Assembly (NCBI RefSeq): GCF_000422085.1
Contig: NC_021741.1
Location: forward strand, 2,604,001 to 2,668,000
From: Serratia liquefaciens ATCC 27592
GTDB lineage: Bacteria > Pseudomonadota > Gammaproteobacteria > Enterobacterales > Enterobacteriaceae
DNA: 64,000 nucleotides
Direction of reading: 5' to 3'
The notes beneath the pieces are model-generated. The model searched no databases, was not told the origin of the DNA, and saw only the letters and a program-made list of their open reading frames with translations. Each line of letters opens with the position of its first letter. Within the stretch, counting starts at the first letter, position 1. Shown one piece after another: positions 3,683 to 59,881 of the stretch. A program made the translations under genes and the position numbers.

Positions 3683-4609
3683 CTAGGGGGTCATAAACTT
3701 CTCATAGTTCTGGGGAGTAACCAGTTGGAAAGGAATAAAGTTCACGTCCTTGATAGCTTCCCCCTTTGCCGCTTGCTCCGCCATATCGACCGCGCCGTAG
3801 GCCTGCGATTTGGCATCCTGGAACACTGTGACCGTCAGCATGCCCTTTTTTATCGCCTGCAGGCCATTTGGTCCGCCATCGGTTCCACCAATCAGAATAT
3901 CTTTACCGACGCTCTTGCCATTACTTTTAATCGCCATAGCTGCGCCAATCGCCATTTCATCAGCATTAGAGGAAAGAATATCGATTTTGTCGCCTGACAA
4001 TATCCAGTTATTCATCAGATTCATGCCATCTTCACGCATCCACTTGGCCGTGTCTTCCAGAATGACGTGCATGTTGGGATTCTTGGCAATAATCTCTTTC
4101 GCCCCTTGGGTTCTAAAACGAGTGGCATCGTTACTCAATAGCCCTTTCATAATGGCGACGTTGACGCTTTTACGATCCTTGACCAGTTCAGCCAGGTATT
4201 GCATCTGTAACCTGCCGGCTTCAATCTCGTCGCTGCCGATATAACTGATGCCATTGCCCATGGTGGAGTCCGAGGGCATACGGTTAAGATAAATCAGCGG
4301 TATTTTGGCCTTTCTGGCGGCCTCGGTGATATTTTTGGTGCCCTGGGTGTCGACCGGATTAACAATAATCACGTCCACTTTCCCATTGATGAAACTCTGC
4401 ACCTGACTCAGTTGCTTATCTACCGCCCCCTGGGCATCTTCAAACTGTAATTTTAGATCCGGGTGTGTTTTTGCTCTTTCGATAATGTAGCCACGTAACC
4501 TCGAGAGAAAAACATCATCCATTTGGGCAATGCTGACGCCAACCTGCACAGCAAATACCGAAGGGCTGAGCGAGAGCAATGAAAGACAGAGTAAGATAAT
4601 TTTCTTCAT
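3683..4609 (-). CDS. Periplasmic sugar-binding protein (inositol/rhizopine-binding type)
   Basis: A 308-residue Peripla_BP_4-type binding protein (ribose/inositol class). It has a clear signal peptide (MKKIILLCLSLLSLSPSVFA, cleavage near residue 20) and the usual two-lobed pattern with IIVNPVDTQ, GSDEIEAGR and GGTDGGPNGLQAIK. A GGAAAA Shine-Dalgarno site precedes the start. It is the last gene of the minus-strand arm of the inositol-type island, 161 bases after the preceding dehydrogenase gene, so it may also have its own promoter. No ABC ATPase or permease for this class is encoded in the island, so partners must be elsewhere or the protein serves another purpose. The ligand (inositol, inosose or an inosamine) is inferred from context. 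Confidence 0.85.
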   Translation of the reverse strand: MKKIILLCLSLLSLSPSVFAVQVGVSIAQMDDVFLSRLRGYIIERAKTHPDLKLQFEDAQGAVDKQLSQVQSFINGKVDVIIVNPVDTQGTKNITEAARKAKIPLIYLNRMPSDSTMGNGISYIGSDEIEAGRLQMQYLAELVKDRKSVNVAIMKGLLSNDATRFRTQGAKEIIAKNPNMHVILEDTAKWMREDGMNLMNNWILSGDKIDILSSNADEMAIGAAMAIKSNGKSVGKDILIGGTDGGPNGLQAIKKGMLTVTVFQDAKSQAYGAVDMAEQAAKGEAIKDVNFIPFQLVTPQNYEKFMTP

Positions 4610-4770
4610 AATCGTTTTCCCATTAATGGTGAATAGCGTGTAATTTCAGTACGAAGGGTTAATTATTTACTGCTATGACATTGCGTTGGCCTGTACGGCA
4701 TAGCTAACGCAGGTGACGCCGCCCGTACGTCAGAACATCCCAAAAGGAACCTGCCATACGAACGGACTCG

Positions 4771-5886
4771 TCAGAGTGCGATCCAGTTTCGTTCCGCGGA
4801 TGAGCGTACCGCAGCGTCCACCAGACGCTGTATTTCAACCGCCTCTTTAAAATCTGGCCCTTGTGAGTCTCCCTGCTGAATTGACTGAATGAACTCAAGC
4901 ATTTCAATGGTTTTTAGATCGTTGAACCCCAGTTGGTGCCCCGGAGCCGGACAAAAAAGCCCGTAAGGCGCGTGCTCCGGCCCGGCAACCAGCGTTTTAA
5001 AGCCGTTCAGGCCGCTAGGGCCGTCATAACGGAAATACTGGATTTCGTTAAAACGTTCCTGATTGAAGCTCAGGGCCCCCTGGGTACCGGTGACTTCAAA
5101 CCCCAGCTGCATTTTATGGCCCGTGGCGACCCAGTTGGCTTCTATATGACCGCGGCAGCCACGAGCAAATATCAGGGTCAGACGCGCAATGTCGTCAACC
5201 TCTACCGGTTTCAGCACCCTCGAACCTGCGCTTTCCGGCCGAGCTTTAATCACCGTATCGAGATCGGCGAACACTTCGCTTACCGGGCCGAGCAAAAATC
5301 TGGCCATACCCAAAATATGGCTGCCCAAATCCGCCACCGCGCCGGCCCCTCCGGCCGGATCTAACCGCCACGACCAGGGGATTGCAGGATCCGCCATGAA
5401 ATCCTCCGCGTGGATCCCCCTAAAGCCGGTAATCTCGCCTAAATCGCCGTTGGCTATCATCTGGCGAGCCAACTTCAGCAACGGGTTTTTAATGTAATTG
5501 AACCCCACCTGGGTGAAGACACCGGCTTTCTCTGCCGCAAGGCGCATTCGCTCAGCGGTCTCGCTGTCCGGTGCCAAGGGCTTTTCACAGTGCACATGTT
5601 TCCCCGCCGCGATGGCGGCAAGGGCCTGTTCGGCGTGAAACCTGTTTGGTGAGGTTATCGAAATAACATCAATATCCGGATCGTCGATCAGATCTTGCCA
5701 GCGTTGGGTCCAGCGCATAAAACCAAACTGCTGCGCGGCGCTTTCAGCCGCAGCGGCGTCAATATCCGCCACGCTGATTAATACCGGCTGAATATCACCG
5801 GAAAGCGTGGCAGCGGCACGCCAGGCTCTGGCGTGCGATTTCCCCATAAAGCCGGTGCCAATAAGTCCAATACCGATTTTTTGCAT
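4771..5886 (-). CDS. Gfo/Idh/MocA family oxidoreductase (second inositol-type dehydrogenase)
   Basis: A 371-residue NAD(P)-dependent dehydrogenase. It has an N-terminal Rossmann fold (GLIGTGFMG, residues 8-16) and the family EKP motif (E101-K102-P103). A C-terminal substrate domain carries the D186/H190 pair in ADLGSH, corresponding to the catalytic Asp/His of IolG. It probably oxidises or reduces a cyclitol or sugar acid, for example scyllo-inositol or an inosamine (MocA-like). I chose the ATG at 5886 because GAGGAG lies 7 bases upstream; the ATG two codons earlier overlaps that site. Eleven bases separate it from the upstream iolG-like gene, so they are co-transcribed. It is distinct from the neighbouring IolG-like protein in length and sequence. 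Confidence 0.85.
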   Translation of the reverse strand: MQKIGIGLIGTGFMGKSHARAWRAAATLSGDIQPVLISVADIDAAAAESAAQQFGFMRWTQRWQDLIDDPDIDVISITSPNRFHAEQALAAIAAGKHVHCEKPLAPDSETAERMRLAAEKAGVFTQVGFNYIKNPLLKLARQMIANGDLGEITGFRGIHAEDFMADPAIPWSWRLDPAGGAGAVADLGSHILGMARFLLGPVSEVFADLDTVIKARPESAGSRVLKPVEVDDIARLTLIFARGCRGHIEANWVATGHKMQLGFEVTGTQGALSFNQERFNEIQYFRYDGPSGLNGFKTLVAGPEHAPYGLFCPAPGHQLGFNDLKTIEMLEFIQSIQQGDSQGPDFKEAVEIQRLVDAAVRSSAERNWIAL

Positions 5887-5897
5887 CGCCATTCTCC

Positions 5898-6893
5898 TCA
5901 ATCCAGCGCCACAGCCGCATGAGTGTCTGCGGAAAGCTGAGCGGCATCCGCCAACCTCAGGGCCATGCAACCGTCATGCACCGTGATCGGCATAGGTGTG
6001 CCCTGCTTAATTGCCGAGATAAAAGCGTCTATTTCCAGCCGGTAGGCATCGCTATAGCGCTCCATGAAGAAGTTAAGCAATGGCCCACGCGCTTCGGTTT
6101 CTTGCTTGCTATAACGTCTAACCGGAGTCGCCCGCAGGTTGTCATTCAACAACATCCCCCCGGAACCGAAGACCTCCATACGTTGGTCATAGCCATAGAT
6201 TGCCTGGCGACTGCAGTTGATCTGACACTGTTTGCCTGAGGCGGTGCGCAATTGCACCATTACAGTGTCATAATCGCCCAACGCCTCCAGTTCAGGGGCG
6301 AACAGACGGCTGCCGGTTGCAAACACCTCCACCGGCTCTTCGCCCAGGATCCAGCGGGCAAGGTCAAAATCGTGGATCACCATGTCGCGGAAAATTCCTC
6401 CCGAGTTTTTCAAATAGCCCATGGGCGCCAATCCAGGATCTCGACTGGTAATGATCACCTGATGAAGGTCGCCAATATCGCCACTGCGGATACGTTGGTT
6501 AATCTCACTAAACCCCAGATCAAACCGGCGATTGAAGCCCAGCATGACCTGACTGGCATGCTCGCCCAGTGCCCTTTGCGCCGCATACGCCTTGTTGATA
6601 TCCAAATCCACCGGCTTTTCGCACAGTACCGCCTTGCCGGCTTTAGCCGCGGCCAGCATCAGATCAATATGGGTATGCGTGGGTGTGCCTATGATGACGG
6701 CATCAATATCAGGGTTTTGAATGGCTTCAAGCGGGTCAGCTAACGCAACGCCCCCCCAGGCCGCGGTCAACGCTTTGGCATTTTCGATAACAGGGTCTGC
6801 AACAGCGGTAAGAAAAGCATCGTTATGACGAGCCACATTCGCCGCATGTACCTGACCGATACGCCCGGCACCGAGAATCGCAATTCTGATCAT
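5898..6893 (-). CDS. iolG: Inositol 2-dehydrogenase-like protein (IolG type)
   Basis: A 331-residue Gfo/Idh protein close to IolG, which oxidises myo-inositol to 2-keto-myo-inositol (scyllo-inosose) with NAD+. Visible landmarks are the Rossmann motif GAGRIG (8-13) and K93 in CEKP. D170 and H174 lie in GIFRDMVIHDFD; this is the Lys/Asp/His triad known from Bacillus IolG. The ATG at 6893 is preceded by GGAG at good spacing; the ATG at 6905 has no Shine-Dalgarno site. It lies in a tight operon with the hydroxyacid dehydrogenase upstream and a second Gfo/Idh gene downstream. Substrate specificity within the inositol family (myo, chiro, scyllo) is not readable from sequence alone. Confidence 0.85.
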   Translation of the reverse strand: MIRIAILGAGRIGQVHAANVARHNDAFLTAVADPVIENAKALTAAWGGVALADPLEAIQNPDIDAVIIGTPTHTHIDLMLAAAKAGKAVLCEKPVDLDINKAYAAQRALGEHASQVMLGFNRRFDLGFSEINQRIRSGDIGDLHQVIITSRDPGLAPMGYLKNSGGIFRDMVIHDFDLARWILGEEPVEVFATGSRLFAPELEALGDYDTVMVQLRTASGKQCQINCSRQAIYGYDQRMEVFGSGGMLLNDNLRATPVRRYSKQETEARGPLLNFFMERYSDAYRLEIDAFISAIKQGTPMPITVHDGCMALRLADAAQLSADTHAAVALD

Positions 6894-6915
6894 GACAGTC
6901 TCCATAAGAAGTCAG

Positions 6916-7896
6916 TTATTTATGGCCATGAAGCTTCAGGGCCTGCTGATTAACCACCAGTCCGCTCTCGAGCTGACCATTGAAAAAATCGAGGATATTG
7001 GAAGCGGCCGACACTGACATTCGCATCGCCGCCTCTGCAGTGAGCCCGGCAGAGTGTGGCGTGAGGATCAGCCGTTCAGTTTGCGCTAACAGTGTCGAGC
7101 CCAGGTTTGCCGGCTCCTGTTTCAGCACGTCTAAACCGGCGCCGCCGAGATGTCCGCTTTGCAAGGCTTCCGCGAGCGCCTCTTCATCGACAATTCCCCC
7201 TCGTGCGGTGTTGATCAACAGTGCGCCCGGTTTCATCGTCGCCAACTGCTGTCGGCCAATCAGCGGTTTCTCGTCACTGAGTGGAAGGTGAACAGTGACC
7301 GCATCGGCGGTCTTCAGCCCTGTGCTGATGTCACCCATTCTTTCAACGCCGAGCTGGGTAAACACCTCGTCTGGAAGATAGGGATCGTAGGCCGTAACGC
7401 GCATGCGGAAACTTTTAGCCAACCGGGCCACCTCCCTGCCAATACGGCCGAAACCCAGGATGAAAAGCGTCCTTCCGGCCATTTCCATCGCGGAAAACCC
7501 GTTGCGTCTGTTCCATTCACCTTCACGAATACTGCGGTCGAAGTAACAGAGACGTTTAGCCAAAGCCAACAGCAAGGAGAAGGTATGTTCAGCTACCGAC
7601 AGTGAATTGACATCGCCGATAATGGTCAGTGGGATCTGTCGTTCGGTCAAAGCCGCCACGTCCACCGAGTCATAACCCACGCCATGGCGCGAGACGATCC
7701 TGAGTCGCCGAGCCGTCTGGATTTCTTTCGCGCTCAAGGGTTGGGTGCGAATCAACAATGCATCGGCCTCGGCAAGATAAGGCGCGTAACTTTCCACGCT
7801 CACTTCCGCCACCAGCTGTACCGTAAAGCCAGGTGCGTTGCGTAAGATGGCCAAACCGGCATCGTGGATTTTTCCGGCCACCAGTACATGCGGCAT
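6916..7896 (-). CDS. D-isomer-specific 2-hydroxyacid dehydrogenase
   Basis: A 326-residue NAD-dependent 2-hydroxyacid dehydrogenase of the SerA/GhrB superfamily. It has the central Rossmann motif LGFGRIGREVA (about 147-157) and the catalytic triad R232 (NTARGG), E261 (KQEPA) and H281 (TPHSAG). It lacks the ACT domain of true phosphoglycerate dehydrogenase, so a catabolic reductase or dehydrogenase (glyoxylate, hydroxypyruvate or a longer 2-keto acid) is more likely. I place the start at 7896: GGGGAGG lies 8 bases upstream and the start follows the aldolase stop codon with one base between. The longer frame starting at 7944 would overlap the aldolase by 47 bases. It may process a product of the aldolase encoded next to it. 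Confidence 0.85.
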   Translation of the reverse strand: MPHVLVAGKIHDAGLAILRNAPGFTVQLVAEVSVESYAPYLAEADALLIRTQPLSAKEIQTARRLRIVSRHGVGYDSVDVAALTERQIPLTIIGDVNSLSVAEHTFSLLLALAKRLCYFDRSIREGEWNRRNGFSAMEMAGRTLFILGFGRIGREVARLAKSFRMRVTAYDPYLPDEVFTQLGVERMGDISTGLKTADAVTVHLPLSDEKPLIGRQQLATMKPGALLINTARGGIVDEEALAEALQSGHLGGAGLDVLKQEPANLGSTLLAQTERLILTPHSAGLTAEAAMRMSVSAASNILDFFNGQLESGLVVNQQALKLHGHK

Positions 7897-7897
7897 T

Positions 7898-8713
7898 TCA
7901 GTATCCTCCCCGAACGGCGTGCTCTGCGTCTTTGACTTCGCCATTCAACTGACGAAACTGCGCCACGCTGGCTGAAGCCGCGGACCGCAGCAGTTGTACG
8001 TCGTTGGATACCGTCACCAGGTCAAAGCCCCATTCAGCGGCTTGCGCGGCATAGGCGGCAGTGCCGTTATGCAACCCTGCCTTCTTGCCTGCACGATGCG
8101 CCGTGGCCAGGATATGCTTTATGGCTTCGATGATTTCGGGCTCGTCTCGATCAAACCCGGTACGGTATTTTCGACCGGTCAAGCCAAGCGTCAGATCCGC
8201 CGGGCCGATGTAAACGCCGTCCAGACCTGGCGTAGCCACAATGGATTCGATATTTTCAACGGCCTCGGCCGTCTCGATCATAGCCAGACAGACCACCTGC
8301 TCATCGGCAAATTGACCATAGTCCGCTCCGGCAGAAATCACCGCACGGGTGGGGCCGAAACTCCGGCTGCCAGTGGGGGGATAACGCACGCAGGAAACCA
8401 GGGTACGGGCCTGTTTGGCAGTGTTTACCATCGGGCAAATAATGCCCCAGGCCCCGGCATCCAGCGCCTTCATGATCATACCCGGTTCGAGCCAGGGCAC
8501 CCTGACCAGCGGGGCTATACCGCTGGCGCGCATCGCCTGCAGCATATGGGTTGCCTGCTCGTAACCGACAAACCCATGCTGGAGGTCTATCGTGAGCGCA
8601 TCGTACCCCTGCTCAGCCATAATCTCGGCGGTAAAGGAACTGGCAACGCTCAGCCAGCCGTTCAACACCGTTTGCCCCTCATCCCAACGCTTTTTGACGT
8701 TATTGCGTTTCAT
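7898..8713 (-). CDS. HpcH/HpaI family class II aldolase
   Basis: A 271-residue protein of the HpcH/HpaI aldolase family, which performs retro-aldol cleavage of 4-hydroxy-2-oxo acids to pyruvate plus an aldehyde with a divalent metal. H46 in IDLQHG, R71 in VRVPW, E147 in AMIETAEAVEN and D173 in YIGPADL match the catalytic base, the pyruvate-binding Arg and the two metal ligands of HpaI and GarL. A textbook AAGGAG lies 7 bases before the ATG. Position between an aldehyde dehydrogenase and a hydroxyacid dehydrogenase fits a cleavage step whose aldehyde or keto-acid products are handled by these neighbours. In a standard inositol pathway this place is taken by the phosphate-dependent IolJ, which is absent here. 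Confidence 0.88.
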   Translation of the reverse strand: MKRNNVKKRWDEGQTVLNGWLSVASSFTAEIMAEQGYDALTIDLQHGFVGYEQATHMLQAMRASGIAPLVRVPWLEPGMIMKALDAGAWGIICPMVNTAKQARTLVSCVRYPPTGSRSFGPTRAVISAGADYGQFADEQVVCLAMIETAEAVENIESIVATPGLDGVYIGPADLTLGLTGRKYRTGFDRDEPEIIEAIKHILATAHRAGKKAGLHNGTAAYAAQAAEWGFDLVTVSNDVQLLRSAASASVAQFRQLNGEVKDAEHAVRGGY

Positions 8714-8722
8714 TGCGGCTCC

Positions 8723-10156
8723 TTAAACCACGATCTGTGCAAGTTTGGTGTTCATGTAGTCGTGGATACCTTCTGAACCCCCTTCACGTCCCATACCGCT
8801 GGCCTTGATCCCCCCGAACGGCACTTCAGCCGCTGCCAGCGCATAGCTGTTGATCCCCACCATGCCGGACTCGAAGCGAGAAACGGCTTCGCGGATCCGA
8901 GCCGGATCTCGCGTAAAGGCATAGGCCGAGAGAGCAAAATTGGAATTGTTAACCCTGTCCCATAAGGCTTCGCTGTCGCTAAAAGAAGTGATTGCCGCAA
9001 TGGGGCCGAAATTCTCCTCAGCCATTGCGAGCGCATCGTCGGGTAAATCGGCAATCACCGTGGGCGCATAAAAATAGCCCCCGCCAAGTTCAAGACGATG
9101 CCCGCCAGTCACCACCCTTCCGCCTTTGGCGCGCGCGTCGGTAACGATGTCTTCGATCGCGTGAAGCCGTTTCATGTTGATAAGCGGCCCCATGGTGGTG
9201 CCCTCATCGAGCCCATAACCCACATTCAGCTGGCTGGCTCGCCGAGCGAAGCCTTCCACAAAGGCCTGATAGCAGTGTTCATGGACATAAAAACGATCGC
9301 CGGTTACACACACCTGACCACTGTTGGCAAATTTCGTGGCAACTGAGAGATCTAGCGCTTTATCGATATCGGCGTCGTTAAAAATGACTACTGGCGCATT
9401 GCCGCCCAACTCCATGCTGAGCCGCTTGATGGTTGATGCAGAATCGCGGATCATCTGCCGACCGATTTGCGTGGAGCCAGTCAGGGAAACCTTCCTGACC
9501 GTTGGCGATGACATTAAAGGCCCATAGGTGGTTGCAGTCGGCCCCACCACCAGGTTGGCGACGCCGGCCGGCAGCCCAGCCTGACGCAAACATTCGAAGA
9601 TCAGCATCGCGGAACCCGGTACTTCACTCGAAGGACGTAATACCACCGTACAGCCTGCGGCAAGTGCGGGGGCCAGTTTGCGGGCCACCAATACCACCGG
9701 GAAATTCCAGGCGGTGAACGCCGCCACCACGCCGATCGGCTCATGCAGGACTTCGCAGCGGCCTGCGGGAACGCGACTTTCGACAATTCGCCCATAGATG
9801 CGCCGCGCCTCTTCCGCATGCCAAATAAACTGATCGACAGACAGCTCCCATTCACGTTTTGCCTGCGCCAAGGGTTTGCCACTTTCTTTCGAAACCATCA
9901 CTGCAGCTTCTTGCGTTATCGCCACCATGGCACGCGCTACCGCCTGAAGCAGATCCGCTCGTTGCCAGGCCGGTGTGTTTTTCCAGCCGGGAAATGCTCG
10001 ATCGGCACAGTCCAACGCAACCAGCGTATCCACCGCAGACGCCGCCTTAATCTGACCCAACTCGCAGCCCTTGCCCGGGTCGATCACCGTTATCCTTTCG
10101 GTGCCACGGCCGGTACACCACTCACCGTTGATAAACTGTCCAAAATTGTCATACAT
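8723..10156 (-). CDS. NAD(P)-dependent aldehyde dehydrogenase
   Basis: A 477-residue aldehyde dehydrogenase superfamily member. The general base is E249 in MELGGN, the nucleophile C283 in NSGQVC, and FTAWNFP (147-153) is the cofactor/substrate motif. The usual cofactor-contacting Lys in the VVxKPS segment is replaced by Arg (VVLRPSSEVP, R174), which is uncommon. It resembles succinate-semialdehyde-type enzymes rather than the CoA-acylating methylmalonate-semialdehyde dehydrogenase IolA. It is the first gene of the minus-strand arm; AGGGA precedes the start and a shared operator site lies about 75 bases upstream. A substrate from inosose ring-opening is likely by context but unproven. Confidence 0.87.
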   Translation of the reverse strand: MYDNFGQFINGEWCTGRGTERITVIDPGKGCELGQIKAASAVDTLVALDCADRAFPGWKNTPAWQRADLLQAVARAMVAITQEAAVMVSKESGKPLAQAKREWELSVDQFIWHAEEARRIYGRIVESRVPAGRCEVLHEPIGVVAAFTAWNFPVVLVARKLAPALAAGCTVVLRPSSEVPGSAMLIFECLRQAGLPAGVANLVVGPTATTYGPLMSSPTVRKVSLTGSTQIGRQMIRDSASTIKRLSMELGGNAPVVIFNDADIDKALDLSVATKFANSGQVCVTGDRFYVHEHCYQAFVEGFARRASQLNVGYGLDEGTTMGPLINMKRLHAIEDIVTDARAKGGRVVTGGHRLELGGGYFYAPTVIADLPDDALAMAEENFGPIAAITSFSDSEALWDRVNNSNFALSAYAFTRDPARIREAVSRFESGMVGINSYALAAAEVPFGGIKASGMGREGGSEGIHDYMNTKLAQIVV

Positions 10157-10230
10157 GATGGGTTGTCCCTCAGCATTTTGCTTCGGCAGAGTGCCGCTAA
10201 AGCATCAATATTTGCAATACTAGACACACA

Positions 10231-10246
10231 GCAATAAAAGTTGCAA
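10231..10246. promoter_or_regulatory. Operator copy 1 of the inositol-type island
   Basis: GCAATAAAAGTTGCAA; its reverse complement TTGCAACTTTTATTGC differs at one base from the sites at 10448 and 11509. It lies 75 bases before the aldehyde dehydrogenase start in the 355-base divergent gap (10157-10511), which is AT-rich and holds no gene. It is probably bound by the RpiR regulator encoded next to it. Confidence 0.65.
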
Positions 10247-10447
10247 CAACACCACCTTGGGCAAAAAATCATAATTAAAATCGATTTAAACTCAAATATA
10301 TCAAGACATTAAAAATTATTTTGGTTTGAAAATTTCAATGCGCACCCGTAATTGAAATAAATATTTTAGAGATGAATCACAAATCTCACGAAGAATTTTT
10401 CCCAGCCCAAGGCAAATGAGATAGAAATAATTGCATGTGAGTTTTAC

Positions 10448-10463
10448 TTGCAATTTTTATTGC
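10448..10463. promoter_or_regulatory. Operator copy 2, before the RpiR regulator gene
   Basis: TTGCAATTTTTATTGC contains the dyad GCAAT-N4-ATTGC. It lies 49 bases before the regulator's ATG, consistent with autoregulation. It is identical over all 16 bases to the copy at 11509-11524. Confidence 0.68.
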
Positions 10464-10511
10464 TGTAGCGTGCTGGAAAATGACTGGCTAATGCCTGGAA
10501 AGGAAATTCTG

Positions 10512-11453
10512 ATGGTGAAAAAAACAGACCCAACTCTGGCCACACTTAAACCGCTACCTCATGACAATTACGAGCAGGTCGTCAACGAAATCACCCGACG
10601 CTATCCGCAGTTGTCGGAGCGCTATCAGCAGGCGGCACGCTACATAACCCAGAACCCCAATACGGTTGCTCTGGAGTCGATTAACGCCGTGGCGGCCAAA
10701 TGCGGATTACATCCATCGGTGTTGGTGCGTTTTGCCCAGGCTTTTGGTTATAGCGGTTTTAAACAGATGCAGAGCGTTTTCCAGACGCGGTTGGCTACGG
10801 CAGCGCCCGGTTACAACGAGCGGATCACCGCACTGGAAAATGATCTGCGAAAAAATGATGAAAAAGGCAGCTTGGGTTTCCTGCAAAGTCTGGTCATTCG
10901 TGATATCGCAACGCTGCAGGAGTTATTGAATAACATCACCGAACAGGATCTCGATGAGACCGCCCATCTGCTGAAGGAAGCTGAAACTGTCTATATTGCC
11001 GGCCAGCTGCGCTCGGAACCTGTCGCGTCGTTGATGCGGTATCTTTTAACCATGCTCAATCGTCGCGTGATACTGCTGGATGCTGCCGGAGGACTGGCAC
11101 CGCAAATGGCCAACAATATGCGGGAAAATGATGTGCTTATTGCCATAGCATTTCGCCATTACGCGAAAGAAGTGATCGCCATTGCGGATGATGCCGGTGC
11201 GCGTGGCATCCCTATTGTGGCCATTACTGACAGTCAGCTTTCACCACTGGCGAAAAGTGCAAAAGTGCTGTTTACCATACCGGAAGAAGAATACAGTTTT
11301 TCGCGATCTCTGGCGGCGCCGGTGTGTCTGGCGCAGAGCATTGCGATGGCATTGGCTGCGGCATTACAGCCGGAAAAAGCCCAGCCCTGCATTGAAACCA
11401 TTACCGAGCGTGAAAAACGCAGTGAGGGGAACCGCAAGCGTCATCGCAGTTGA
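10512..11453 (+). CDS. RpiR family regulator of the inositol-type island (IolR-like role)
   Basis: A 313-residue RpiR-type regulator. The N-terminal helix-turn-helix is at about residues 30-105 (INAVAAKCGLHPSVLVRFAQAFG). A SIS domain lies at about 155-290 (VYIAGQLRSEP, DVLIAIAFRHYAKE), and the tail is basic. The start at 10512 is supported by AAGGAA 7 bases upstream; the frame is open further back but without a good site. It stands at the centre of the divergent island, and identical 16-base dyads lie before it and before iolD, with a variant before the other arm. It is therefore the likely local repressor, probably released by an inositol-derived phosphate or intermediate. The ligand is inference. 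Confidence 0.87.
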   Translation: MVKKTDPTLATLKPLPHDNYEQVVNEITRRYPQLSERYQQAARYITQNPNTVALESINAVAAKCGLHPSVLVRFAQAFGYSGFKQMQSVFQTRLATAAPGYNERITALENDLRKNDEKGSLGFLQSLVIRDIATLQELLNNITEQDLDETAHLLKEAETVYIAGQLRSEPVASLMRYLLTMLNRRVILLDAAGGLAPQMANNMRENDVLIAIAFRHYAKEVIAIADDAGARGIPIVAITDSQLSPLAKSAKVLFTIPEEEYSFSRSLAAPVCLAQSIAMALAAALQPEKAQPCIETITEREKRSEGNRKRHRS

Positions 11454-11508
11454 ATCACGTTTAAAACAGACTTCTGCCCTGTCGGGATGGGAGTCTTGTC
11501 GTTTGAAT

Positions 11509-11524
11509 TTGCAATTTTTATTGC
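11509..11524. promoter_or_regulatory. Operator copy 3, before iolD
   Basis: TTGCAATTTTTATTGC, an exact repeat of the copy at 10448. It lies 80 bases before the iolD start, in the 151-base gap after the regulator, which shows that iolD has its own controlled promoter. Confidence 0.68.
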
Positions 11525-11539
11525 CAATTAAAATAAACA

Positions 11540-11555
11540 GCAATTTAAAATGCAA
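11540..11555. promoter_or_regulatory. Operator copy 4 (degenerate), before iolD
   Basis: GCAATTTAAAATGCAA; the reverse complement TTGCATTTTAAATTGC keeps both outer TTGC/GCAA arms and the A/T core. It sits 31 bases downstream of copy 3 (start to start), about three helical turns, so two regulator dimers could bind on one face of the DNA. Confidence 0.5.
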
Positions 11556-11604
11556 AAAAAATAATCATGCTGCTTTCAGGCGTTCAATCCGAATGGGGGA
11601 AGAT

Positions 11605-13449
11605 ATGGCCAAGATTCGTTGTACAGCGGCTCAGGCAGTCGTTCGTTATCTGAGCAACCAGTTTACGGAAATCGAGGGTGAACGCGTCCCGCTTTTTCCC
11701 GGCGTGTATGGGATTTTTGGCCATGGCAACGTCACCTGTCTGGGTGAAGCGCTGGAAGCAGTACAGGATATTTTGCCAACCTGGCGCGGCCAAAATGAAC
11801 AATCGATGGGTTTTGCGGCTATTGGTTTTGCCAAGGCGATGGTTCGCAGGCAGATCATGGTGGTTACCGCGTCGATCGGGCCGGGTACCGCCAACCTGCT
11901 AACCGCTGCCGGCGTCGCGCACACCAGTCGTTTGCCCATGCTGATGATTTGCGGCGACAGCTTTGCGCGGCGGCATCCGGATCCGGTAATGCAACAGATC
12001 GAGCATTTCAACGATCCGACACAAACCATCAACGATGCTTTCAAAACGGTAAGCCGCTATTGGGACCGCATCACCTATCCAGAACAAATCATGTCCTCGC
12101 TACCGCAGGCTGTGGCCACCATGCTAGATCCGGGCGACTGCGGCCCGGCCTTTATCGGCATGTGTCAGGACGTGCAGGAAATGGCCTGGGATTACCCGGA
12201 AGCCTTTTTCGCCCCGCAGTTGCATCTGATGCCTCGTCCACGGCCCGATCGCCTTCAGCTTGCTCACGCAGCACAATGCCTGATGAACGCCAAACGCCCA
12301 TTGATTATCTCTGGTGGAGGCGTGCGCTACTCACAGGCGGAAGCTGAACTGGAGGCTTTCGCGGTTCGCCATGGCATACCCGTCGTGGAAACCATTGCCG
12401 GTAAAGGCGCTTTTACGCATGACCACCCTATCCATATGGGGCCGATTGGTATTCTTGGCTCCACCTCAGCCAATGAGTTGGCTTCCCGAGCCGATGTCGT
12501 GGTCGCCATAGGAACCCGGTTGATGGATTTCGTCACCGGCTCATGGACGGTATTCGATCAACAGGCACAGTTCATTTCACTCAATGCTGCGCGCTTTGAT
12601 GCGCATAAACACCGCGCTATTCCGCTGGTGTGCGATGCCCGTGAAGGGATTATCGAGCTAAACCATGCACTGGGCGAATGGGTGGCCGCGCCCGCCTGGT
12701 TGGCTAAGGGACGAGCGGCTTTTGCTGACTGGAACGCACTGATTGCAAAAACCCAAGAACCTGGAGTCACCGCCGATGTCCCCAGCTACGCCCAGGTGAT
12801 CGGCGTGGTGAATGCAGTGGCGGCGCCGGAAGATTACATCATCAGTGCCGCCGGCGGGCTGCCTGGCGAGTTGGTGAAAGGCTGGCGTGTCAAAGATCCC
12901 GGCACCTTCGATTGCGAGTTCGGTTTTTCCTGTATGGGTTATGAGCTCTCTGCAGGCTGGGGAGCCGCCATGGCGGGCAAAAAACAGGATGTCTTCGTCA
13001 TGATTGGGGACGGCACCTACATGATGATGAACTCAGATATCTATTCGAGCGTACTGTCCGGTCATAAATTTATTTTACTGGTGTGCGACAACGGCGGTTA
13101 TGCGGTGATCAACCGTTTGCAGAACGCCAAAGGCGGTGCTTCCTTCAATAACCTATTGAAGGATTGCCGCGTGAAAGAGCCTTTCCCGGTGGATTTCGTC
13201 GCCAATGCCGAGTCGATGGGGGCTTATGCCCGCAAGGTGACCTCGCTCGAACAGCTTGAAGACGCCCTTAAATGGGCCAAAGGCAACGATCGTACCACGG
13301 TAATTTCCATTGCCACCGACGCCCACCACTGGACGCCCGGAGATGCATGGTGGGATGTCGGCGTGCCGGAAGTGAGCGAGCGCGAGAGCGTTAACCAGGC
13401 GTATCGCGAACATCTCGAAGGACGCAAAAATCAGCGTATCGGCATTTAA
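11605..13449 (+). CDS. iolD: 3D-(3,5/4)-trihydroxycyclohexane-1,2-dione hydrolase (IolD)
   Basis: A 614-residue thiamine-diphosphate enzyme that opens the cyclohexane ring of the diketo-inositol made by IolE, giving 5-deoxy-glucuronate in the known pathway. The N-terminal Pyr domain carries the ThDP glutamate E65 (GQNEQS). The C-terminal PP domain has GDGTYMMMNSD (468-478) followed by DNGGYAVINRLQ, the metal and diphosphate site seen in IolD proteins. GGGGA precedes the ATG at 11605; the frame extends back to 11182 only because it is open opposite the regulator gene. It is somewhat shorter than Bacillus IolD (about 640). It is followed by iolE after 14 bases. No iolB or iolC lies nearby to use the product. 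Confidence 0.9.
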   Translation: MAKIRCTAAQAVVRYLSNQFTEIEGERVPLFPGVYGIFGHGNVTCLGEALEAVQDILPTWRGQNEQSMGFAAIGFAKAMVRRQIMVVTASIGPGTANLLTAAGVAHTSRLPMLMICGDSFARRHPDPVMQQIEHFNDPTQTINDAFKTVSRYWDRITYPEQIMSSLPQAVATMLDPGDCGPAFIGMCQDVQEMAWDYPEAFFAPQLHLMPRPRPDRLQLAHAAQCLMNAKRPLIISGGGVRYSQAEAELEAFAVRHGIPVVETIAGKGAFTHDHPIHMGPIGILGSTSANELASRADVVVAIGTRLMDFVTGSWTVFDQQAQFISLNAARFDAHKHRAIPLVCDAREGIIELNHALGEWVAAPAWLAKGRAAFADWNALIAKTQEPGVTADVPSYAQVIGVVNAVAAPEDYIISAAGGLPGELVKGWRVKDPGTFDCEFGFSCMGYELSAGWGAAMAGKKQDVFVMIGDGTYMMMNSDIYSSVLSGHKFILLVCDNGGYAVINRLQNAKGGASFNNLLKDCRVKEPFPVDFVANAESMGAYARKVTSLEQLEDALKWAKGNDRTTVISIATDAHHWTPGDAWWDVGVPEVSERESVNQAYREHLEGRKNQRIGI

Positions 13450-13463
13450 AGAAGGGGCAGAAC

Positions 13464-14378
13464 ATGGTTCTTAAAGCAAAGCTTGGCATCGCGCCTATCG
13501 CTTGGTCGAATGACGATCTCCCTCAGCTAGGGGGCGAAACCTCGTTGGCAACCTGCCTGTTTGAAAGCCACCTTGCGGGGTTTCAGGGCGTTGAAACGGG
13601 CGGCAAATTCCCAAAAACCAGTGAGGAGCTCAAACCTACCCTGAAATACTTCCAGCTTGAACTGGTCTCGGGATGGTATTCGGGCACGCTGCTTGATAAC
13701 AGCCTGAACGAAGAAATCAGCCGTTCGCTGCCACAAATGCAACTTTTCCGCGACTGCGGTGCCGCCTGCCTGGTTTACGGAGAGACTGCCGGTACCATCC
13801 AGAACCGGCAGAACGTCCCCCTGGCTGAACGACGTCGGTTGTCCGACGCAGAAATCAGCGAGTACGGCGACAAACTGTCTCGGTTCGCCGCCTTCTGCAA
13901 GGATTTCGGCGTGCCACTCGCCTTCCATCATCATATGGGCACGGCAATTGAAGATGAACAGGATATTGACCGCTTAATGGCGGCAACCAGTAAAGACGTT
14001 GGCCTGTTATTTGATACCGGACATTTGGTGTTCGCCGGCGTGGACCCTGTCAGGGTGCTGGAAAAACATGGCGATCGCATCATCCATGTGCATACCAAAG
14101 ATGTCCGTTTGGACGTGCTAAACGGTATCGACCGCCATAAAGACTCTTTTCTGGATGCCGTATTGAAGGGGGTTTATACCGTACCGGGTGATGGATCCAT
14201 CGATTTCACCGCCGTCATTAATAAGCTTGCCGCTATAGGTTATCAGGGGTGGTTTGTGGTTGAAGCCGAACAGGATCCGGCCAAAGCGCCGCCCCTTGAG
14301 TATGCCCGTCTCGGCTATAACACCCTGTGCAAAGCGCTCAGCGCGGCAGGCTATCGCTATACAGAAGGAGATATATGA
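13464..14378 (+). CDS. iolE: Inosose dehydratase (IolE type)
   Basis: A 304-residue TIM-barrel protein of the xylose-isomerase-like/AP-endonuclease-2 family that matches IolE. It removes water from 2-keto-myo-inositol to give the cyclohexanedione used by IolD, with a divalent metal. Visible landmarks: IAPIAWSNDDLP at the N-terminus, VSGWYSG, the metal-site segments AFHHHMGT, LFDTGHL, HVHTKD and VVEAEQDP. AAGAAGGGG lies before the ATG. The stop overlaps the next gene by ATGA, so they are translationally coupled. It is the enzyme that ties this island most firmly to inositols together with IolD and IolG. Confidence 0.9.
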   Translation: MVLKAKLGIAPIAWSNDDLPQLGGETSLATCLFESHLAGFQGVETGGKFPKTSEELKPTLKYFQLELVSGWYSGTLLDNSLNEEISRSLPQMQLFRDCGAACLVYGETAGTIQNRQNVPLAERRRLSDAEISEYGDKLSRFAAFCKDFGVPLAFHHHMGTAIEDEQDIDRLMAATSKDVGLLFDTGHLVFAGVDPVRVLEKHGDRIIHVHTKDVRLDVLNGIDRHKDSFLDAVLKGVYTVPGDGSIDFTAVINKLAAIGYQGWFVVEAEQDPAKAPPLEYARLGYNTLCKALSAAGYRYTEGDI

Positions 14379-15187
14379 TGGATCAGTTAGTCGGAAAAGT
14401 GGCCGTCATCACCGGTGGCACGCAGGGGCTGGGGGCCGCAATCGCGCGCCATTTTAGCCAGCAAGGGGCCGCCGGGGTGATTATTTGCGGAAGAAACCAG
14501 GCAAAAGGCGCAGAAATCGCTGAGAGGTTAAATGCAGAAACTGACACCCCAGTGATTTTTGTACGCGCCGATTTATCTTCCGTGGAAGACTGTCGCCGGG
14601 TTATCGCTAAAACAGATGAATTATTTGGCCGCGTCGATGTTCTGGTCAACGCCGGGGGCATGACCGATCGCGGCACCATCATCGATACGGCCCCCGAGCT
14701 GTTCGACAAGATGTTTGCCACCAATGTTCGCGGGCCGTTTTATCTGATGCAAGAGTCGATAAAAATTATGCGTCGTGAAAATACGGCGGGCAGCATTGTT
14801 AACATCTGTTCCATGTCAGCGTTGGCCGGGCAGCCTTTTATCTCCGCCTACTGTTCGTCGAAAGGCGCATTGGCTACGTTGACACGCAACACCGCCTACG
14901 CCCTGTTACGCAACCGGATCCGCGTCAATGGTCTGAACATCGGGTGGATGGCATCCGAAGGGGAAGACCGCATAATGAAGCAATATCATGGTGCCGAGGA
15001 TAACTGGCTGGAAAAAGCCGCCGCCGAGCAGCCTTTTGGTCGTTTGATTCAGCCAGAAGAAGTGGCACGTACCGTCGCTTTCCTGGCCAGCGATGAATCC
15101 GGCCTGATGACCGGTTCTATCGTTAACTTCGATCAGTCAGTCTGGGGGGGTTACGATCAGACGCCCTCTCCCTCCGCCCCGCTCTGA
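14375..15187 (+). CDS. Short-chain dehydrogenase/reductase
   Basis: A 270-residue classical SDR. The nucleotide-binding motif GGTQGLG is near residues 14-20, NAGG near 92-95, and the catalytic Ser/Tyr/Lys are S146, Y159 and K163 (SMSALAGQPFISAYCSSKG). AAGGAG lies before the start, and the ATG overlaps the iolE stop. An SDR is not part of the standard iol pathway. In this operon it could oxidise a hydroxyl group of the ring-opened acid or interconvert inositol stereoisomers at the entry. The exact start (14375 or 14378) does not affect the product except for one Met. Confidence 0.86.
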   Translation: MMDQLVGKVAVITGGTQGLGAAIARHFSQQGAAGVIICGRNQAKGAEIAERLNAETDTPVIFVRADLSSVEDCRRVIAKTDELFGRVDVLVNAGGMTDRGTIIDTAPELFDKMFATNVRGPFYLMQESIKIMRRENTAGSIVNICSMSALAGQPFISAYCSSKGALATLTRNTAYALLRNRIRVNGLNIGWMASEGEDRIMKQYHGAEDNWLEKAAAEQPFGRLIQPEEVARTVAFLASDESGLMTGSIVNFDQSVWGGYDQTPSPSAPL

Positions 15188-55514: not shown

Positions 55515-56950
55515 ATGTATCCAGATACTCAACTCTATATCGACGGACAATGGCGTAACGCAGTCGCCGGCAAAACCACGCCGGTCACCAACCCCGCGAC
55601 CGATGAGGTGATTGGCAGCGTGGCGCATGCCGCCGCAGCCGATCTTGATCTGGCACTGGACGCAACCGAACGCGGTTTTAAAGTCTGGCGCGACACCTCC
55701 GCCTATCAGCGTGCAAACCTGATGCGCAAGGCCGCAGCATTGTTGCGTGAGCGCGCCGAGAAGATCGCCGCCATCATGAGTCAGGAACAAGGCAAACCAG
55801 TGGCGCAGGCCAAGGTTGAAATTCTTAATTCGGCGGATGTGATCGACTGGTTTGCCGGCGAAGCCAGCCGCACCTACGGCCAGATTATCCCGTCCCGCAG
55901 TCGCGATGTGCAGCAGCAAACCCTCAAGCTGCCGGTTGGGCCGGTTGCCGCCTTCACCCCGTGGAACTTCCCGATTAATCAGATCGTACGCAAACTGTCC
56001 GCCGCGCTGGCAGCAGGCTGTTCGATCATCGTCAAAGGCCCAGAAGAAACTCCGGCCTCACCGGCGGAGCTGATCAGAGCCTTTGCCGACGCAGGCGTGC
56101 CGGCTGGCGTTATCGCGCTGGTATACGGGACTCCGGCGGAGATCTCCGAGTACCTGATCCCGCATCCGACCATTCGCAAAATCTCGTTCACCGGCTCCAC
56201 CCGCGTGGGTAAACATTTGGCGGCACTGGCCGGCCAGCACATGAAAAAAGCCACCATGGAGCTGGGTGGCCACGCGCCGGTGTTGATTTTTGACGATGCC
56301 GATCTGGACGCTGCCGCCAAAGAGCTGGCGTTGGCCAAATTCCGCAACGCCGGCCAGGTCTGCATCGCCCCGACCCGTTTCCTGATCCAGCAAGGCGTTT
56401 ATGAAGCCTTCGTTGAGAAATTCACCGCTGCGGTGCGTGATATCAAGCTGGGCAATGGTCTGGAGGAAGGCGTCACCATGGGCCCGATGGTTCTGCAACG
56501 CAGCGTAGAAGCCATTGATGCCTTTGTGAAGGATGCGATTGCCCAGGGTGCTAAAGCCACGACCGGCGGTCACCGGGTGGCGGGCGTCGGCAATTTCTTT
56601 GAACCGACGGTATTACGTGACGTGCCGTTGAGTGCGCGCGCGCGATGTCTGAAGAACCTTTTGGTCCGGTAGCCCTGCTGCGTCCGTTCACCACTTATGA
56701 GGAAGCCATTGCCGAGGCTAACCGCCTGCCATACGGTCTGGCGGCTTACGCCTACAGCCGCAGCATCGCCACGGTGACGGCGCTGGGACGCGATGTGGAA
56801 AGCGGCATGCTCAGCATCAACCATATCGGTTTTGGCCTGCCGGAAACGCCGTTTGGTGGGGTGAAAGACTCCGGCCACGGTACCGAAGGCGGCAGCGAAG
56901 CGATCGAATCCTATCTGGAAACCCGCTTCGTCACCGTCGCCGGCCGTTAA
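55515..56950 (+). pseudogene. gabD: Succinate-semialdehyde dehydrogenase-like gene with a frameshift
   Basis: Together the two frames give a complete aldehyde dehydrogenase of about 477 residues. FTPWNFP is at 147-153, base E249 (MELGGH), nucleophile C283 (NAGQVC), and the end is GIES-type [17 protein letters not shown]. The first frame (55515-56672, 385 residues) runs out of phase after [11 protein letters not shown]. The second (56645-56950) continues with [15 protein letters not shown]. Removing two bases from the GC run at 56634-56644 restores one frame exactly. The gene is either phase-variable, freshly inactivated, or the assembly has a 2-base error. Without the last 95 residues the first product would lack the oligomerisation strand. 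Confidence 0.85.
56634..56644. repeat. GC-dinucleotide run at the gabD frameshift
   Basis: GCGCGCGCGCG, five GC units and a half. Loss of one unit (2 bases) would join the two halves of the aldehyde dehydrogenase frame. Confidence 0.9.
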
Positions 56951-58825: not shown

Positions 58826-59881
58826 TCAGCGCAGGCCGAGCAAGGTATTGATTTGCTGTTGATCAACCGGCGCACCGGCGAAGTCATCAAACACCTTGTC
58901 GGTCACGTTGATGATGTGATCACGAATAAAGGCGGCACCTTCGCGAGCCCCATCCTGTGGATGCTTCAGGCAGCATTCCCACTCCAGCGTGGCCCAACCG
59001 TCGTAACCATGCTGCGTCAGCCGGGAGAAGATGCCCTTGAAATCCACCTGACCGTCGCCCAATGAGCGGAAACGTCCGGCGCGCTCGGTCCATGACTGAT
59101 AACCGCCGTAAATGCCCTGCCGCCCGGTCGGATTGAATTCGGCATCCTTGACGTGGAACATGCGAATGAAATCCTTATAAATATCGATGTAATCCAGATA
59201 GTTCAGCTGTTGCAGCACGAAGTGGCTCGGATCGAACAGTATTTGGCAGCGCGGGTGTCCGCCAACACGCTGATGGAACATTTCAAAGGTCACGCCGTCG
59301 TGCAGGTCTTCACTGGGGTGGATTTCATAACACAGGTTCACCCCCTGTTCATCGCAGGCGTTGAGCACCGGCAGCCAGCGTTTGGCCAACTCATCGAACG
59401 CGGTTTCAATAAGCCCCGCCGGGCGCTGCGGGAACGGGAATAGATAAGGCCAGGCCAGCGAACCGGAAAAGGTGCCCATTTCGGTCAGGCCCAGTCGCGC
59501 TGAGGCTTTGGCCGCCAGCAGCAGTTGCTGGTGCGCCCACTCGCTGCGCGCCTGCGGGTTGCCATGCAATGCCGGTGGCGCAAAGCTGTCGCACAATGCG
59601 TCATAAGCCGGATGCACCGCCATCAGCTGACCGAAAATGTGGGTGGTCAGTTCGCTGACTACCAGTCCCTGCTCCGCAAGCATGCCGATCAGTTCGTCGC
59701 AATAAGTCTGGCTTTCCGCCGCGGTGGCCAGATCAAACAGTCGGCTGTCCCAGGCGGGGATCTGCAGGGCTTTAAAACCGGTTTCTGCCGCCCATTGAGC
59801 GATAGCCGGCAAGCTGTTGAATGGGGCTGCGTCGTCACTGAATTGGGCGAGATGCAGGCTTGGACCTTTCAGGGTTTTCAT
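58826..59881 (-). CDS. Sugar phosphate isomerase/epimerase-like TIM-barrel protein
   Basis: A 351-residue xylose-isomerase-like TIM barrel with metal-site segments CYEIHPSEDLHDG, LFDPSHF, MFHVKDAEF and TLEWECCL. Members include epimerases, IolE and YcjR-type oxidised-sugar enzymes. AGGAG lies 6 bases before the ATG. It is the first gene of the unit and its Shine-Dalgarno region overlaps the 13-4-13 operator. With two hydrolases behind it, the unit may degrade a glycoside or ester of an unusual sugar; that is inference. Confidence 0.85.
   Translation of the reverse strand: MKTLKGPSLHLAQFSDDAAPFNSLPAIAQWAAETGFKALQIPAWDSRLFDLATAAESQTYCDELIGMLAEQGLVVSELTTHIFGQLMAVHPAYDALCDSFAPPALHGNPQARSEWAHQQLLLAAKASARLGLTEMGTFSGSLAWPYLFPFPQRPAGLIETAFDELAKRWLPVLNACDEQGVNLCYEIHPSEDLHDGVTFEMFHQRVGGHPRCQILFDPSHFVLQQLNYLDYIDIYKDFIRMFHVKDAEFNPTGRQGIYGGYQSWTERAGRFRSLGDGQVDFKGIFSRLTQHGYDGWATLEWECCLKHPQDGAREGAAFIRDHIINVTDKVFDDFAGAPVDQQQINTLLGLR

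Follow-up and report, generated by a model that had tools for sequence, protein, structure and literature searches.

An inositol-type gene island of Serratia liquefaciens, conserved and often plasmid-borne, with a candidate kinase-free lower branch

How might an inositol locus dispose of the acid formed by its own ring-opening enzyme when none of the usual genes for the following steps lies beside it? This question is raised by an island at positions 3683–15187 of a 64,000-nt stretch of the Serratia liquefaciens ATCC 27592 genome (NC_021741.1, positions 2,604,001–2,668,000; hereafter the window), in which genes for IolG, IolE and IolD accompany those for an aldehyde dehydrogenase (ALDH), an HpcH/HpaI-type aldolase, a 2-hydroxyacid dehydrogenase (2-HADH), an SDR oxidoreductase and a second Gfo/Idh dehydrogenase, Gfo2 (Table 1). 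In the standard pathway, IolG oxidises the ring substrate to inosose, IolE dehydrates the inosose and IolD opens the ring. No iolA, iolB, iolC or iolJ gene was found within the island; genome-wide searches placed iolB and iolC outside it, and the island ALDH was ruled out as IolA by its score for methylmalonate/malonate-semialdehyde dehydrogenase (MMSDH; 198.6 bits, cut-off 448.5 bits). Gene content and linkage incline us, slightly, towards an answer in which the island is an inositol-type unit that would possess its own non-phosphorylated lower branch.

The island consists of two divergent operons flanking a single 355-base gap. The minus-strand operon encodes ALDH, aldolase, 2-HADH, IolG and Gfo2, then a binding protein, and the plus-strand operon RpiR, IolD, IolE and SDR; the G+C contents of the island (54.1%) and the whole window (54.8%) are alike. 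Every gene was an intact open reading frame (ORF) at the position listed in a first-pass annotation of this DNA, and family matches agreed with the enzyme names given there. When judged by NCBIfam curated cut-offs, the claim that these calls are firm held for IolG, IolE and IolD, the remainder being assignments at family level. As the aldolase, ALDH, 2-HADH and Gfo2 score under their family cut-offs (for Gfo2 also 310 bits against the levoglucosan dehydrogenase family, cut-off 650), any substrate assigned to them is putative. Among solved proteins the SDR comes nearest to 4nim, which is named versicolorin reductase and gives no help with the function of the SDR.

The first-pass annotation described an inositol island without the usual lower pathway. 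That description is right for the island and wrong for the strain: a complete standard iol cluster was found at C1:4.933–4.947 Mb of the 5.28 Mb, two-contig genome (G000), 2.3 Mb from the island, and the lack of iolA, iolB, iolC and iolJ is thus confined to the island and does not extend to the organism. The standard cluster comprises iolE, a Gfo/Idh protein gene, iolD (947 bits), an iolC–DUF2090 fusion, an RpiR-like regulator gene, iolB, iolA (649 bits) and a sugar transporter gene. Its IolC fusion is 642 residues long, and we take the DUF2090 part to be the IolJ portion. The island IolD shares 36.7% identity with its standard counterpart in this genome and 63–85% with island IolD proteins elsewhere, so the window holds a second, different gene set.

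A search for this gene set in other genomes yielded, in total, 33 island loci (window included), which were fetched through the aldolase or ALDH and kept if they carried the island; presence of the aldolase is therefore by construction, that of the neighbouring ALDH and 2-HADH is not. The order ALDH–aldolase–2-HADH was identical in all 33. An IolD of the island subfamily lay near this triplet in 32, and in the remaining one (G737) an island-type IolD was located on another contig. The other genes recurred at varying frequency: RpiR and IolG in 31 loci each, Gfo2 in 29, IolE in 27, SDR in 24, the IolE-like TIM-barrel protein SPIsom2 in 18, PhyH in 10, pyruvate carboxylase in six, iolC in four, iolB in three, phosphoenolpyruvate (PEP) synthase and MMSDH in two each and a glycerate-kinase-family gene in one, genes cut by a locus edge to under 30% (e.g. 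SPIsom2 in L038) not being counted. IolE or SPIsom2 was present in 32 loci and SDR or Gfo2 in 33; the missing IolE of L090 may be an edge effect, as its sequence is short. Five loci (L036, L081, L109, L119, L120) possess SPIsom2 and no IolE, which suggests that SPIsom2 can replace this inosose dehydratase. Left out of the 33 were L083 (triplet and Gfo2, with IolD absent over 20 kb), L085 (diverged), L084, L086, L087, L091, L092, L115 and L116 (aldolase in other contexts), L078 (contig of L039) as well as L124 and L125 (contig of L038).

Chromosomal and plasmid searches delineated the distribution of the unit. The aldolase query matched four contigs outside its own genome. With the ALDH as query at E 1e-150, four of the family's 295 genomes matched, one of them that of S. 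liquefaciens ATCC 27592 itself, and none of the three genomes listed under the same genus did. With an aldolase profile, 9 of 398 genomes of the phylum matched at E 1e-115; six of these carry the island (G000, G691, G737, G757, G793, G941), G994 has the triplet but no IolD in the 20 kb read, the set of G906 is diverged, and G1062 has only the aldolase. In the Halomonas order, 6 of 390 genomes matched at a looser E 1e-90, with the island seen in G297 alone and G465, G655 and G672 seen only as short match loci. The Klebsiella island had no close copy in E. coli complete genomes by megablast. The aldolase search of plasmid records produced 59 matches at E 1e-60. All 23 records with a plasmid IolD of at least 63% identity had an aldolase (E at most 1e-60) no further than 14 kb away, compared to three of the next 37 listed IolD records (48–55% identity), and 23 of 30 records with plasmid aldolases of at least 54% were IolD-linked. 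We read 21 of the linked records, all but NZ_OZ012600 and NZ_CP043499; the unlinked aldolase records H16, H17, H18 and H30 and three Rhizobium records (45–46% aldolase beside 53% IolD) were likewise omitted. The island is thus a real, conserved unit that is often plasmid-borne. Because it occurs on plasmids of Klebsiella, Pantoea, Rhizobium, Shinella, Paracoccus and others, some of them typed as conjugative, it appears to travel between hosts. Two Klebsiella plasmids typed as conjugative (L088, L106) carry the whole island plus an ABC transporter.

In a tree of 47 IolD proteins, the 33 island sequences formed one branch (support 96/88, or 100/99 when the distant L085 was included). This claim refers to the named branch: the tree tool flagged long branches, and the label "island" means closer to the window IolD, a label that eight standard IolD proteins elsewhere carry too.

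From enzyme families and linkage, the following chemistry can be proposed. In the upper part, where family chemistry is well established, IolG and Gfo2 would oxidise ring substrates to inosose, which IolE would dehydrate before IolD opened the ring to give 5-deoxyglucuronate. ALDH would convert the aldehyde of 5-deoxyglucuronate to 5-deoxyglucarate, 2-HADH (or Gfo2 or the SDR) would oxidise C2 to a 2-keto acid (C6H8O7), and the aldolase would cleave this acid into malonate semialdehyde and hydroxypyruvate; the atoms balance, C6H8O7 being the sum of C3H4O4 (hydroxypyruvate) and C3H4O3 (malonate semialdehyde). Since the triplet supplies the only constant lower enzymes, oxidation of the aldehyde, oxidation of C2 and cleavage would be the simplest order. 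Malonate semialdehyde would proceed to acetyl-CoA via an IolA-type enzyme, provided by the standard iol cluster in S. liquefaciens and by an island-side gene in Halomonas. Should 2-HADH not be the C2 oxidase, it might convert hydroxypyruvate to glycerate. The cleavage would parallel that by IolJ, which releases dihydroxyacetone phosphate and malonate semialdehyde, with a carboxylate replacing the phosphorylated carbon, so that neither isomerase nor kinase would be needed. A non-phosphorylated branch had already been suggested by the first-pass annotation, and the conserved triplet with its own IolD subfamily, together with a Halomonas genome without detectable iolB and iolC, speaks for it. The SDR, there assigned a fixed step, occurs in 24/33 loci only, which does not support such a role.

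This Halomonas genome is G297, Halomonas salipaludis. We tested iolB in 12 island genomes and IolC in eight (E 1e-60), counting G691 and G298 as one genome, since their matches fall at identical coordinates of a shared contig, and excluding G994 (iolB present) and G906 (iolB match under cut-off) for want of a full island. G297 was the only one of the 12 with no detectable iolB and had no IolC-grade kinase, a finding tempered by its being a draft genome of unstated completeness whose IolJ status lay outside the searches made. Among the eight, six had an IolC above the cut-off and G296 one just below it. At E 1e-120, G297 has a single IolD, that of the island; the other ten genomes searched have two or three. 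All 13 standard IolD genes of the 12 island genomes have iolB or iolC no more than about 6 kb away, and none of the island IolD genes has iolB within 200 kb. Next to the H. salipaludis island is an MMSDH/IolA gene (703 bits, cut-off 448.5) on the strand opposite to ALDH, with one exact copy and near matches of the palindrome described below in the gap between the two; this is where one would put a malonate-semialdehyde sink. Similarly, an annotated MMSDH gene lies about 10 kb from the aldolase gene on Klebsiella aerogenes pC9_001. The island seems to be the only inositol route of H. salipaludis. The fullest form of our reading is that alpha- and gammaproteobacteria share a complete, widely transferred kinase-free inositol pathway, running from its own IolD subfamily through ALDH and 2-HADH to a hydroxypyruvate-forming aldolase, so that SwHKA-like aldolases would gain a physiological role, and that H. 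salipaludis depends on this pathway as sole route; this version is tentative, its chances a little short of even.

The aldolase is assigned to the branch of SwHKA, the hydroxyketoacid aldolase of Sphingomonas wittichii (PDB 6R62), which is its closest characterised solved relative. The closest solved group includes SwHKA at 208 bits, compared to 127 for GarL and HpaI, profile comparison gave 248 bits to SwHKA versus 155, and metal and catalytic residues are retained. According to an excerpt of PMC10099721, SwHKA accepts hydroxypyruvate and was crystallised with it; the excerpt names no function for it in the cell. The ALDH is related to succinate-semialdehyde dehydrogenase (SSADH), whose carboxylate ligands in human numbering are Arg213, Arg334 and Ser498; the passages seen of PMC11681614 describe Arg334 as kept only in the ALDH5 family and Ser498 in all SSADHs. 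Columns placed through an alignment with E. coli GabD and the human sequence showed the Arg213 equivalent to be kept and the Arg334 and Ser498 equivalents to be Ala in 33/33 loci. Lacking two of the three ligands, the island ALDH is probably no ordinary SSADH.

A shared operator-like pattern lies upstream of the operons, as would be expected of a unit controlled by RpiR. The pattern (GCAAY-4-RTTGC) was taken from nine aligned enterobacterial intergenic regions, eight of which hold exact palindromes and one (L036) a near match. The window contains exactly three palindromes versus 0.04 expected, GCAATAAAAGTTGC ahead of the ALDH gene and GCAATTTTTATTGC ahead of both the RpiR gene and iolD; as the pattern was derived from aligned promoters, the iolD site alone was found independently of it. 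The pattern occurred in 37 of the 148 loci fetched, many of which are short or overlap one another; in some cases it lies upstream of a PhyH gene (L108, L110) or a binding-protein gene (L093, L111, L112), and it was absent from the standard iol stretch of the same genome (L024, L025). The best explanation for the arrangement is a putative RpiR-linked, inositol-type catabolic unit.

Several observations weigh against a self-contained kinase-free branch, in addition to those cited below for the alternatives. Seven of the 30 plasmid records with an aldolase of at least 54% identity have no such IolD nearby. G994 encodes ALDH, aldolase, 2-HADH and Gfo2, with no IolD within the 20 kb read, and L085 combines a diverged IolD (52%) and aldolase with neither ALDH nor 2-HADH. 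The glycerate-kinase-family gene occurs in a single locus of the 33. The palindrome, a sequence pattern defined after the aligned promoters had been viewed, is missing from several islands (e.g. L036, L039, L081, L095, L120). Phe210 of SwHKA is His in the island aldolase (His215); this residue was rejected as a marker, since non-iol relatives share it, and is not diagnostic.

As for the substrate, Gfo2 most resembles, among solved proteins of named function, the scyllo-inositol/L-glucose dehydrogenase 5ya8 (314 bits), with the unnamed oxidoreductase 4fb5 scoring 322 bits; this likeness to scyllo-inositol dehydrogenase points to ring oxidation, rather than the lower branch, as its probable place. 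Genes for an ABC permease and ATPase adjoin the binding-protein gene in G230, G087, L048, L088 and L106. The window island contains none, and the sole ATPase matches in the rest of the window are weak (31% at most) and lie 28 and 50 kb along. Rhizopine (moc) catabolism involves mocA, mocB, mocC and demethylase genes; the island offers a binding protein and Gfo/Idh proteins, with no demethylase-like gene among them. The unit could nonetheless serve a methylated or amino inositol (e.g. pinitol, ononitol, rhizopine), with the ring processed by Gfo2, SDR or SPIsom2, demethylation carried out by neighbouring oxygenases and a lower branch that may start from the modified acid. We consider this rather unlikely for the unit as a whole. 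The PhyH-type dioxygenase genes of ten loci, in L108 and L110 with the palindrome upstream, a MocE-annotated ferredoxin in L114 and desaturase-family genes in L094 and L114 suggest methylated inositols as substrates in those hosts, circumstantial backing for the methyl-inositol entry raised by the first-pass annotation. However, no PhyH, MocE or desaturase-type gene stands beside the window island, and the set varies among loci. Because the proposal concerns entry, it is compatible with a kinase-free lower branch.

More at odds with such a branch is an island that only adds upper-pathway enzymes for unusual inositols, the chromosomal IolB, IolC, IolJ and IolA taking the IolD product and the triplet handling another substrate or a side product. 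The full standard cluster in the same genome is in line with this division of labour, as is the presence of iolB in 11 of the 12 island genomes, where the IolD product could enter the standard branch; moreover, on three Paracoccus plasmids the island has iolB and iolC as immediate neighbours, and on a fourth iolC. Yet it is hard to reconcile with H. salipaludis, with its one IolD and neither iolB nor IolC-grade kinase detected, and with a triplet present in every locus and accompanied by its own IolD subfamily in 32, and we regard it as unlikely.

The third alternative keeps the oxidative branch and alters its chemistry: a dehydration would give a 2-keto-3-deoxy acid (4-hydroxy-2-oxoadipate), from which the aldolase would release pyruvate and malonate semialdehyde. 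Pyruvate carboxylase lies near the aldolase in at least seven of the 23 plasmid records (a count without formal control, and a lower bound since the list held 60 of 301 records, one place each), and PEP synthase is found near two Klebsiella islands, neighbours that hint at a pyruvate product. Furthermore, aldolases 65–70% identical to that of the island occur in non-iol operons with an enolase-type (MR/MLE-family) gene, the expected dehydratase, in one case also with pyruvate carboxylase. This alternative is nevertheless improbable, as the window island encodes no recognisable sugar-acid dehydratase, the possible dehydratase SPIsom2 occurs in 18 of the 33 loci only, its window relative lies 43 kb off, and 2-HADH would be left without an obvious task. 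For the C3 product, hydroxypyruvate has the edge and pyruvate is possible.

Compared with known systems, we are moderately confident that the island represents a variant of inositol catabolism. It shares IolG, IolE and IolD, all above curated cut-offs, and the expected product malonate semialdehyde with the standard pathway, but has the oxidative triplet in place of IolB, IolC, IolJ and IolA, another IolD subfamily and a palindrome that the standard stretch lacks. The known alternative pathway of Thermotoga maritima (IolM, IolN, IolO) is not known to run via IolE and IolD, whereas the island goes through both. GarL-type aldarate breakdown likewise employs an HpcH-family aldolase on an aldarate-derived keto acid. 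GarL, however, acts on a 2-keto-3-deoxy acid made by a dehydratase; no such dehydratase was recognised in the island, whose aldolase is 30.9% identical to E. coli GarL. In the open-access literature searched, no match was obtained for 5-deoxyglucarate and related names, for pinitol demethylation or for the combination of inositol, malonate semialdehyde, hydroxypyruvate and aldolase, and among the titles and abstract openings listed none described such a set of genes.

Inositols make up an abundant carbon source in plants and soil. In a large genome survey, inositol use is scored from iolB, iolC, iolD and iolE, with at least three of them required within 10 kb according to the excerpt seen of PMC9430895; with iolD and iolE only, the island falls short of this rule. 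If the proposed branch exists, such rules would miss or half-call an isomerase- and kinase-free route, iolD/iolE clusters without iolB and iolC would be explained, and hydroxypyruvate-accepting aldolases now used as biocatalysts would gain a natural task. H. salipaludis makes the branch directly testable.

Table 1. Genes and operator-like palindromes of the island, in window coordinates, with best family or structural match (bits) and, where given, occurrence among the 33 loci.
Feature	Position	Strand	Evidence
Sugar ABC-type periplasmic binding protein	3683..4609	-	PF13407, 177 bits
Gfo2, Gfo/Idh dehydrogenase	4771..5892	-	5ya8, 314 bits; 29/33 loci
IolG, inositol 2-dehydrogenase	5898..6905	-	TIGR04380, 400.7 bits (cut-off 355)
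2-HADH, PGDH-like	6916..7896	-	PGDH, 281 bits (cut-off 454); 33/33 loci
HpcH/HpaI-type aldolase, SwHKA branch	7898..8713	-	HpaI, 171 bits (cut-off 369)
ALDH, SSADH-derived, carboxylate pocket altered	8723..10156	-	SSADH, 482 bits (cut-off 646)
Palindrome GCAATAAAAGTTGC	10231..10244	+	Upstream of ALDH gene
Palindrome GCAATTTTTATTGC	10450..10463	+	Upstream of RpiR gene
RpiR-family regulator	10512..11453	+	31/33 loci
Palindrome GCAATTTTTATTGC	11511..11524	+	Upstream of iolD
IolD, island subfamily	11605..13449	+	TIGR04377, 820 bits (cut-off 715)
IolE, inosose dehydratase	13464..14378	+	TIGR04379, 409.2 bits (cut-off 290)
SDR oxidoreductase, PRK06198 family	14375..15187	+	446 bits (cut-off 240); 24/33 loci

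Two starts in Table 1 were chosen: that of 2-HADH was set at 7896 to follow the aldolase (the longest ORF reaches 7944), and the longest RpiR ORF starts at 10431. Other islands showed peculiarities of their own. In L114 (Jiella pelagia), IolD, ALDH and Gfo2 are each in two overlapping pieces, so this island may be decaying or contain sequence errors. In the alphaproteobacterial islands L111, L112, L121 and L122, the regulator gene and the ABC genes are separated by one for a TauE/SafE-type exporter. The L091 and L092 operons, which by annotation combine an aldolase 65–70% identical to that of the island with a phosphotransferase, a class III aminotransferase, an amine ABC transporter, an MR/MLE-family protein and an alpha/beta hydrolase, represent another use of the SwHKA-like aldolase branch.

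The surroundings hold further genes of note. Positions 58826–59881 of the window (minus strand) encode a TIM-barrel protein (PF01261) 62% identical to SPIsom2, 43 kb from the island, whose neighbours by eye resemble alpha/beta hydrolases. At 55515–56935 (plus strand), an aldehyde dehydrogenase gene is split over two frames with the break near 56636, which probably reflects either a broken gene or an error in sequencing. Just ahead of the window, directly upstream of the MFS transporter gene at its start, an ORF (L026:10794–11759) looks like another 2-hydroxyacid dehydrogenase. Elsewhere in the genome, a further IolE-like protein (L027:8257–10367, G000:C1:2.098 Mb; 165 bits, below cut-off) is encoded next to ORFs that look, by eye, like genes for a Gfo/Idh protein and a regulator of LacI type; the genome may have a third inositol-like locus here.

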